A stretch of DNA of 64,000 nt from an uncultured Acidobacteriia bacterium (lineage in GTDB: Bacteria > Acidobacteriota > Terriglobia > Bryobacterales > Bryobacteraceae): assembly GCA_903892565.1 (NCBI GenBank), contig CAITIX010000006.1, positions 1-64,000 on the forward strand, given 5' to 3'. The position numbers and the translations under genes were made by a program. Shown in pieces: positions 31,673-34,134 of the stretch. Every line of letters starts with the position of its first letter. The first letter of the stretch is position 1. A model generated the notes under the pieces. That model searched no databases, had not been told where the DNA came from, and was given only the letters and a program-made list of their open reading frames with translations.

Positions 31673-32650
31673 TTACGGCACAATTGCTTCCATTTCGGGA
31701 CTGTAGCCTCCCAATTCAGGCACCACAATGGCCGCGCCCGTCTGTTTCCGGACGCGCATGGCAAGCGCCGCGGCCTGCTCCCGGGTCATCTCGCGCCCCA
31801 CCAAAACCTTCCACAGAGGAGGATTGCGCGAGGCGTCCACCAGCGTGCGAGCTACCGCAAATGCTTCCGTCATTGTCATACGGAGCGCCTCGGCGCGTTC
31901 CCGATCCACGAAGGCTCCCGCTTGGACGACGAAACGCGGCATCGACACGGTTACTGATGTGGGTGCTGAGGTTGCTTTCGAACGTGTTTCGGCCCGTGCA
32001 TCAGACGATGCATCAGGCGCCGCATACGACGACGCCCCCGAAGTTTGCTCCAGCGGGGACGGTGGTGCAGCGGCCGATTTTGTTTCTGCCGCCGTCGTCG
32101 TCGAAATTGTCGGCGGAGAAATCGTCGGTGGCGAAACTGCTGTCGGAGAAATTATCGTGGGAGAAGAGATTGCCGGAGTAGACATCGTCGGCGAAGTTGA
32201 CGCTGGAGAAGATGACGCCGGAAAACGTTTTGCCGGACCTGCCACCACCGTTAATCGAACACGCGCCGTGCCCGTACCGAGCATGTCGATTTCTTTTGCC
32301 GCCGTCTGCGAGAGATCGATCACGCGATGTCCCACGAACGGACCTCGATCGTTGATGCGAACGTCCACGCGTTTTCCGTTCGAGAGATTTTCTACTTCAA
32401 CCCAAGTTTGAAACGGAAGCTTGCGATGCGCGGCGGTGAGATTGTACATGTCATAGGTCTCTCCTGAGGCCGTTTGTCTTCCGTGATACGGAGTGCCGTA
32501 CCAACTCGCGACACCAACTTCCGTTTTTTTTATTCGCGCTGGTGGCGGAGCAAGTGCGCCGCGATTTGTGTGGTGAGCGCAGCTCGCCACGATCGCGGCA
32601 AATGCGATGATGAGCGTCTCACCCGCATGAATAGGCCTTGTGATGCGCAT
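31673..32650 (-). CDS. rlpA: RlpA-like septal ring protein (DPBB + SPOR domain lipoprotein)
   Basis: Lipobox-like [42 protein letters not shown]-terminal [22 protein letters not shown]. Confidence 0.92.
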
Positions 32651-32753
32651 CCGTTCCTTGAAACAATTCTACTATTTTACGTTTTTGCGTGCCGAGCGAT
32701 GTTTGCTCTGCCTCCATCGTCCTCTTCGTGTCAAGAGGCGATGCATTTTTTTC

Positions 32754-32783
32754 TTGACATTCTTATGTAAACCACCTTATAAA
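32754..32783 (+). promoter_or_regulatory. Sigma70-like promoter TTGACA-N18-TATAAA
   Basis: -35 TTGACA 32754-32759, -10 TATAAA 32778-32783. Confidence 0.7.
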
Positions 32784-32844
32784 GGGGACACGACCGCGCT
32801 CTCTTTTGAGATGCGCGAAATCTGATGTAAAGGGAGAATCAATC

Positions 32845-32910
32845 ATGAAGAACGCAACCAAGAAGAAGGCGGCCCCGAAGAAGAAAGCTGCTGCGAAGAA
32901 AAAGAAGTAG
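32845..32910 (+). CDS. 21-aa lysine/alanine-rich basic peptide MKNATKKKAAPKKKAAAKKKK
   Basis: SD AGGGAG at 32831-32836 with 8-nt spacing, upstream consensus promoter, downstream terminators; below the 60-aa ORF cutoff. Confidence 0.65.
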   Translation: MKNATKKKAAPKKKAAAKKKK

Positions 32911-32947
32911 CTCTATCGGGCTCGCAATAGCGAGTTTGATCTAACCC

Positions 32948-32973
32948 GGCCCCGAGCAATCGGGGCCGTTTTT
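32948..32973 (+). terminator. Intrinsic terminator 1
   Basis: GGCCCCGA-GCAA-TCGGGGCC then GTTTTT. Confidence 0.88.
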
Positions 32974-32981
32974 ATTTGTGT

Positions 32982-33004
32982 CCCGAGCAATCGGGGCCGT
33001 TTTT
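32982..33004 (+). terminator. Intrinsic terminator 2 (tandem duplicate)
   Basis: CCCGA-GCAA-TCGGG GCCGTTTTT. Confidence 0.75.
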
Positions 33005-33012
33005 ATTTGTGT

Positions 33013-33033
33013 CCCGAGCAATCGGGGCTTTCT
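33013..33033 (+). terminator. Intrinsic terminator 3 (partial duplicate)
   Basis: CCCGA-GCAA-TCGGG GCTTTCTT. Confidence 0.6.
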
Positions 33034-33201
33034 TATTTGCAGAAAGCGATACTGAGCACAACGAACGCCCGGGCAGAGGCATGGTAAACCCCGGACGTGA
33101 GTGCGGGGATATACTTGCAGGCGCGATCACGCGTGGATATCTCCTCGGCTTCGCGGCTCGCGGTTCTACTTCCCGCCGTCCACCACAATGCCGAAGACGT
33201 C

Positions 33202-34134
33202 CTAGAGGATCTTCTGGATCGCCGCGCGCACATCCTCGTAGGTCATCACTCCGGGATGATAGAGCCGCACAACGCCCAGCTTGTCGATCAACACAAACGT
33301 CGGAATCGTACTCGCGCCGTAGCGGACGAAGTTGGTTTCGTTGACGATGGTCGGCCCTTCCATCAAGCCGCCATAGAGCGATTCGCGCACGTGTTCGATG
33401 TAGGCAAGCTCCACGCCGGGCGTTGCTTCCACACCGCCAGCGGCGTATCCGTACTTCTGTGTCGGGAAAACGATTTTCAATCCCTTCGCCGCAAACTCAG
33501 CCTTGATGCGCGCCAATACCGGGATATCGGTTTTGCAGTCTCCGCACCAGTGCGCCCAAAAGAAGAGCAGCGTCGGTTGTCCCTTGGGGATCGCGAAGCC
33601 GGCAACGGCCGGTGCGGGCTTGCCCTCTAACGTCAGCAGTAAAAGATTTTTGTGGATGCGCGTGCGGATTGACGTCGCGGCGTACATCATCTCCTGTTGT
33701 TCCAGGTAAGAGATCGCTTCGGCGCGGCGTCCTTGCGCGGCCAGCGTATCGGCCTGCACTTCGATGGCGGCACCCAGCGCAATGGGCAGATGCGGTTCGC
33801 GATCCAGCGGACGGCTTTTCAGTAAGGCCGTCGAAAGATCATAGACCTCTTGTGAGAACTGCGCCGCTTGCGCATAGCGGCGGCTGTTGAGCTCCACGCG
33901 CGCCAGCCAGCTTTCCGCTTCCAGGTATTCGGGAGTTGCGCCTCGCACCGAACGATAGGCCTGCAACTGTTGCAGTGCTCCCGCTTCACTGCCTTGCCCC
34001 AACGCAGCTTGTACCGATTCCACGATGCCCATCGGAGCCCGCGCCACTTGCGCAGAACCTGGGATCACGGCGGCGAAAAAGAAAATCGCCTCACCCAAGG
34101 CCAGTCCGATCCAGCGAGAAGAGATTCGCGGCAT
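33202..34134 (-). CDS. TlpA-like thioredoxin-fold protein with N-terminal helical repeats
   Basis: QPTLLFFWAHWCGDCKTDIPVLARI, C-terminal TIPTFVLIDKLGVVRLYHPG. Confidence 0.88.
   Translation of the reverse strand: MPRISSRWIGLALGEAIFFFAAVIPGSAQVARAPMGIVESVQAALGQGSEAGALQQLQAYRSVRGATPEYLEAESWLARVELNSRRYAQAAQFSQEVYDLSTALLKSRPLDREPHLPIALGAAIEVQADTLAAQGRRAEAISYLEQQEMMYAATSIRTRIHKNLLLLTLEGKPAPAVAGFAIPKGQPTLLFFWAHWCGDCKTDIPVLARIKAEFAAKGLKIVFPTQKYGYAAGGVEATPGVELAYIEHVRESLYGGLMEGPTIVNETNFVRYGASTIPTFVLIDKLGVVRLYHPGVMTYEDVRAAIQKIL

Follow-up and report, generated by a model that had tools for sequence, protein, structure and literature searches.

Between an RlpA-like and a TlpA-like gene, the window (the whole stretch of DNA analysed, 64,000 nucleotides) carries a short transcription unit which, on comparative sequence evidence, is a real gene conserved throughout the class. 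By the same comparisons, its open reading frame (ORF) is judged to be translated into a 21-aa lysine-rich peptide that is under purifying selection. With slightly better than even probability, the product may be regarded as a minimal polycation resembling a histone H1 tail, with DNA as its main partner or as one of several polyanions. Such a broadly conserved coding gene is easily missed because it falls below the usual ORF length limits and is of low complexity. In addition, trypsin would cut the peptide to near-single residues, making it invisible to ordinary proteomics. Literature searches did not turn up a publication on a peptide of this kind in Acidobacteria.

Anatomy of the unit

The promoter (TTGACA, 18 bp, TATAAA), the Shine-Dalgarno (SD) sequence AGGGAG and the ATG-to-TAG frame described in an earlier note on this DNA were confirmed at their coordinates by direct reading. 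The peptide is correctly described there as free of acidic residues, but it contains 11 lysines, not 12. The flanking genes also bear out the position given for it, as a plus-strand unit of its own between two minus-strand genes. The features are as follows.

31673-32650, minus strand: RlpA-like protein (DPBB and SPOR), flanking the ORF
32744-32753, plus strand: CATTTTTTTC tract directly 5′ of the -35 box, proximal UP-element-like; near-invariant across 41 aligned loci
32754-32759, plus strand: -35 box TTGACA, read from the sequence; TTGAC invariant in the 41 loci
32778-32783, plus strand: -10 box TATAAA, read from the sequence; TATA invariant in the 41 loci
32788-32791, plus strand: predicted transcription start, placed by promoter geometry (distance to the -10 box)
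32795-32817, plus strand: 5′ UTR stem-loop CGCGCTCTC-TTTT-GAGA-T-GCGCG, from the centroid fold and covariation of the basal stem
32831-32836, plus strand: SD AGGGAG within conserved GATGTAAAGGGAGAATCA; GGGAGAA invariant in the 41 loci
32845-32910, plus strand: 21-aa ORF MKNATKKKAAPKKKAAAKKKK, ATG at 32845 and TAG at 32908-32910, based on orthologs and synonymous excess
32915-32940, plus strand: 3′ UTR stem-loop ATCGGGCTCGC-AATA-GCGAGTTTGAT, from MFE and centroid folds; hairpins at the same place in many relatives
32947-32973 (hairpin 32947-32968), plus strand: first of three intrinsic terminators, CGGCCCCGAGCAATCGGGGCCG and T-run, from the hairpin scan; kept in relatives
32980-33005 (hairpin 32980-32997), plus strand: second terminator copy, from the hairpin scan
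33011-33038 (hairpin 33011-33028), plus strand: third terminator copy, from the hairpin scan
33202-34134, minus strand: TlpA/thioredoxin-like protein, flanking the ORF downstream on the opposite strand

The spacer between the -35 and -10 boxes is 18 bp in the window (32754-32783) and 17 bp in most relatives. A simple promoter scan passed over this promoter because the scan requires T at the final -10 position. Across the entire genome to which the window belongs, TTTTTYTTGAC-N15-19-TATA has a single occurrence, against none for the reversed control pattern. Strong expression of the gene is plausible given the consensus -35 box, the T-tract and the good SD. The dedicated near-consensus promoter would yield a monocistronic transcript of about 160-190 nt, and the 5′ hairpin, strong SD and terminator would make it a compact and probably stable mRNA.

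At the 3′ end, the terminators claimed earlier were found as three plus-strand intrinsic terminator hairpins, and the region holds five terminator-like hairpins compared with 1.1 expected from shuffles. The position of the first terminator is conserved in relatives, at 20-60 nt past the stop codon, and a terminator-like hairpin lies at most 130 nt 3′ of the stop in 131 of 142 loci. The terminator unit (CCCCGAGCAATCGGGGC and T-run) forms three tandem copies in the window (32947-33038) and two copies at the related loci L006 and L014. In the neighboring RlpA-like protein (31673-32650), a long low-complexity S/T/P/A linker separates DPBB from SPOR.

Conservation and coding evidence

BLASTN with a 221-base query recovered the unit in 21 of 22 genus relatives, the sole exception being a genome that is 65% complete (G002). 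A covariance model (R1) comprising the promoter, the leader including the SD, and the first seven codons matched 186 of 200 genomes of the family (136 of 141 good genomes; 74 of 76 genera), with a single copy per genome in almost every case, and its matches extended to other families of the class. A broader model (R2), rebuilt on class-wide matches, found the unit in 155 of 250 genomes of the class (132 of 203 good genomes; 72 of 94 genera), the matches of both models being biased towards lysine-rich starts through the seven codons that they contain. The remainder of the ORF and the terminator lie outside both models and constitute independent support. Conservation of the start, stop and lysine pattern in close relatives was checked, as the earlier note had suggested, and the finding survives; the class-wide spread had not been seen at that stage. 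The 41 aligned leaders have in common CATTTTTTTCTTGAC followed 17-18 bp later by a TATA box, together with a 5′ stem-loop, GATGT-AGGGAGAAT, and ATGAAG.

Elsewhere in the phylum, two genomes of a different family (f84) carry a similar unit whose ORFs, 29 and 26 aa long, are rich in K and A; the matches are weak (E = 1.7e-4 and 0.005), the noise limit of R2 in the phylum search being about E = 1e-3. This limit is set by two matches in f56 (L210, L211) that have no K-rich ORF and were rejected as false positives. A further phylum-level match, in a genome of f40, has a K-rich ORF of 148 aa. Of the weak secondary BLAST matches in relatives, the two inspected (L027, L026) were rejected as further copies of the unit, being K-rich stretches of longer frames; L027 is a longer open frame with a K/A/P-rich tail that the window DNA matches weakly.

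Selection was assessed in 18 genus orthologs of equal length, in which third codon positions make up 16 of the 22 variable columns (binomial p = 1.8e-4). Divergence in the genus requires a minimum of 25 synonymous versus 6 nonsynonymous changes, against a neutral expectation of 20-27% synonymous for random single-base change. This excess over the neutral expectation argues that the peptide is translated and selected. Changes in ORF length among relatives keep the frame, and the unit thus combines the marks of a protein-coding gene, namely synonymous excess, conserved start, stop and SD, and frame-preserving length changes.

Across 142 loci, picked by K/R content and including some near-duplicates, the products range from 10 to 148 aa (median 21; 10-28 aa in most species) and carry 7-94 basic residues (median 11). 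They are K/A/T/P-rich, with 48% K and 30% A, usually end in KKK, KKR or KKH, and contain no acidic residues, a property that was not a criterion for picking them.

Proposed function and resemblance to known polycations

The product would be a probably disordered 21-aa polycation with a net side-chain charge of about +11. It is likely to behave as a polyelectrolyte in which positive charge and the lysine-rich end are selected rather than a fixed length or sequence; across the 142 loci, charge is conserved while length varies. Polyanion binding is proposed because of this composition and the selection on charge rather than length. Lysine-phosphate contacts would allow binding of chromosomal DNA, RNA and ribosomes, or polyphosphate as candidate partners, in a mode likened to that of free histone H1 tails, Hc2/BpH1 and the AlgP C-terminus. 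Counting against a polycation of this kind, HU-type proteins are already present at 3-5 per genome in the genomes tested. On their own, its shortest forms (10-13 aa) may be weak binders.

No Pfam or NCBIfam family matches the 21-aa peptide. A 114-aa KKAAPA-repeat relative (L157; genome G067, genus g11) scores 12.5 bits (E = 0.16) against Pfam HC2, where the cut-off is 40, and 33.1 bits against NCBIfam NF038053, where it is 80, thus falling below the curated thresholds for H1-like family membership. The 142 loci do display the Lys/Ala-rich low-complexity repeats and size variation by which H1-like proteins are otherwise recognized. The likeness to bacterial H1-type tails that had been put forward is upheld in composition and in relatives of 38-114 aa that arose by KKAAPA-type repeat expansion. 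L157 has a similar GGGAGAAT site 5′ of its ATG; the model matches its downstream half only (positions 35-119), leaving the promoter part unmatched.

Hc2 (HctB) and BpH1, together with the Hc2-like proteins of Burkholderia and Herminiimonas, likewise lack a globular fold and carry low-complexity K/A/T/P repeats. Like the lysine-rich peptide, Hc2 and BpH1 are each encoded by a single small gene and vary in size (PMC2848022) through repeat number, but proteins of this type reach about 165-237 aa, whereas the peptide has 10-28 aa in most species. The C-terminal KPAA-repeat domains of AlgP and PhaF also share its H1-tail-like Lys/Ala/Pro composition. However, in AlgP (352 aa; PMC9239181) and PhaF a helical N-terminal domain precedes the tail in the same protein, whereas here the tail stands alone. 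The KPAA-repeat domain of AlgP binds DNA (PMC9239181).

Composition alone is also compatible with RNA-binding or ribosome-associated roles. It is somewhat unlikely that the main partner of a polyanion-binding peptide is the ribosome, RNA or polyphosphate granules instead of DNA, and the probability given to the H1-tail-like polycation overlaps with this alternative. The same compositional evidence serves both, and precedents exist in AlgP, whose lysine-rich H1-like tail accompanies an association with polyphosphate granules (PMC9239181), and in Hc2, for which stronger RNA binding than that of Hc1 is reported (PMC2848022). Yet the sequence favors no polyanion over another, and the fixed sequence expected of a dedicated ribosomal protein is absent.

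More generally, it is tentatively suggested, at well below even probability, that the whole class keeps a strongly expressed, free polylysine-like peptide as a gene-encoded counterion to nucleic acids or polyphosphate. This would amount to a minimal protamine or an H1 tail without its body, reduced to 10-13 residues in some families and possibly combined with a function of the structured mRNA. If it does bind nucleic acid or polyphosphate, the peptide would count as one of the smallest proteins of the H1-like type, and the natural series of lengths from 10 to 114 aa would provide a test of the charge requirement.

Transcript structure and alternative readings

The leader contains a covarying 5′ hairpin that the earlier note had not seen. 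Its basal stem shows changes on both sides in 27 cells, compared with 7.3 in shuffles, and is paired in 92.7% of cells, compared with 16-51% when the stem is slid; the window transcript has a folding z-score of -4.0. Loci in which this RNA frame survives without the ORF had likewise escaped notice. At L123/L230, L231 and L232 (three genomes of one genus) and at L225 (another family), the unit retains its promoter, leader hairpin, SD-like site and terminator, but its ORF has been deleted or is without a start. Recent pseudogene formation may explain these loci, or they may point to a separate role of the RNA. Because the ORF has decayed in these four loci, and some genomes of the family and class lack the unit by R1 and R2, the small lysine-rich gene is not strictly essential.

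The ORF-less loci that keep the RNA elements are the strongest evidence for a dual-function or mainly regulatory small RNA, in which conservation would concern the compact, structured transcript, with a peptide of secondary importance or locally lost. The sRNA-like anatomy of the unit, the covarying stem, the folding z-score and the conservation of GATGTTAGGGAGAATCA, which exceeds a simple SD in length, agree with such a role. It is nevertheless unlikely, given that synonymous changes in the ORF are in strong excess and its length changes preserve the frame, that leader sequence and stem differ widely among families, and that the decayed loci, three of four in one genus, may be recent pseudogenes.

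A short ORF rich in one codon and followed directly by terminator hairpins could also be a leader peptide or attenuator that senses lysyl-tRNA or ribosome stalling and controls a downstream gene. In the window, however, the next downstream gene lies on the opposite strand. In many family members the unit adjoins the same neighbors as in the window (the rlpA cluster and two further clusters), and in other relatives it is intact beside unrelated genes. Since the neighbors vary and no constant co-oriented downstream gene was found among the neighborhoods compared, the unit is regarded as independent. Peptides of 38-114 aa in relatives are also unfit for a leader, and attenuation, rejected on neighborhood, is very improbable. 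A chance ORF in an intergenic region, which the very short, low-complexity frame might suggest, is refuted by class-wide conservation and purifying selection and has a negligible probability.

Homology to the Rfam family sX6 (RF02225) was rejected. The score of the window, 26.3 bits, falls short of the gathering score, which is 40, and sX6 gave no match at 13 loci of relatives; the window match is judged to be due to chance. The sX6 transcript of Xanthomonas, originally regarded as an sRNA, encodes a protein (PMC5559785) and is an analogy only. The 16S gene in the assembly is partial and matches plasmid-borne 16S of other phyla at 74-78%. The host is probably a member of Acidobacteriota, conceivably of the Bryobacter/Solibacter group; the phylum assignment follows from Acido-1 RNA, reported from Acidobacteria (PMC2864571), which two genomes of this family contain above threshold (RF01686), each with two copies (L063, L064).
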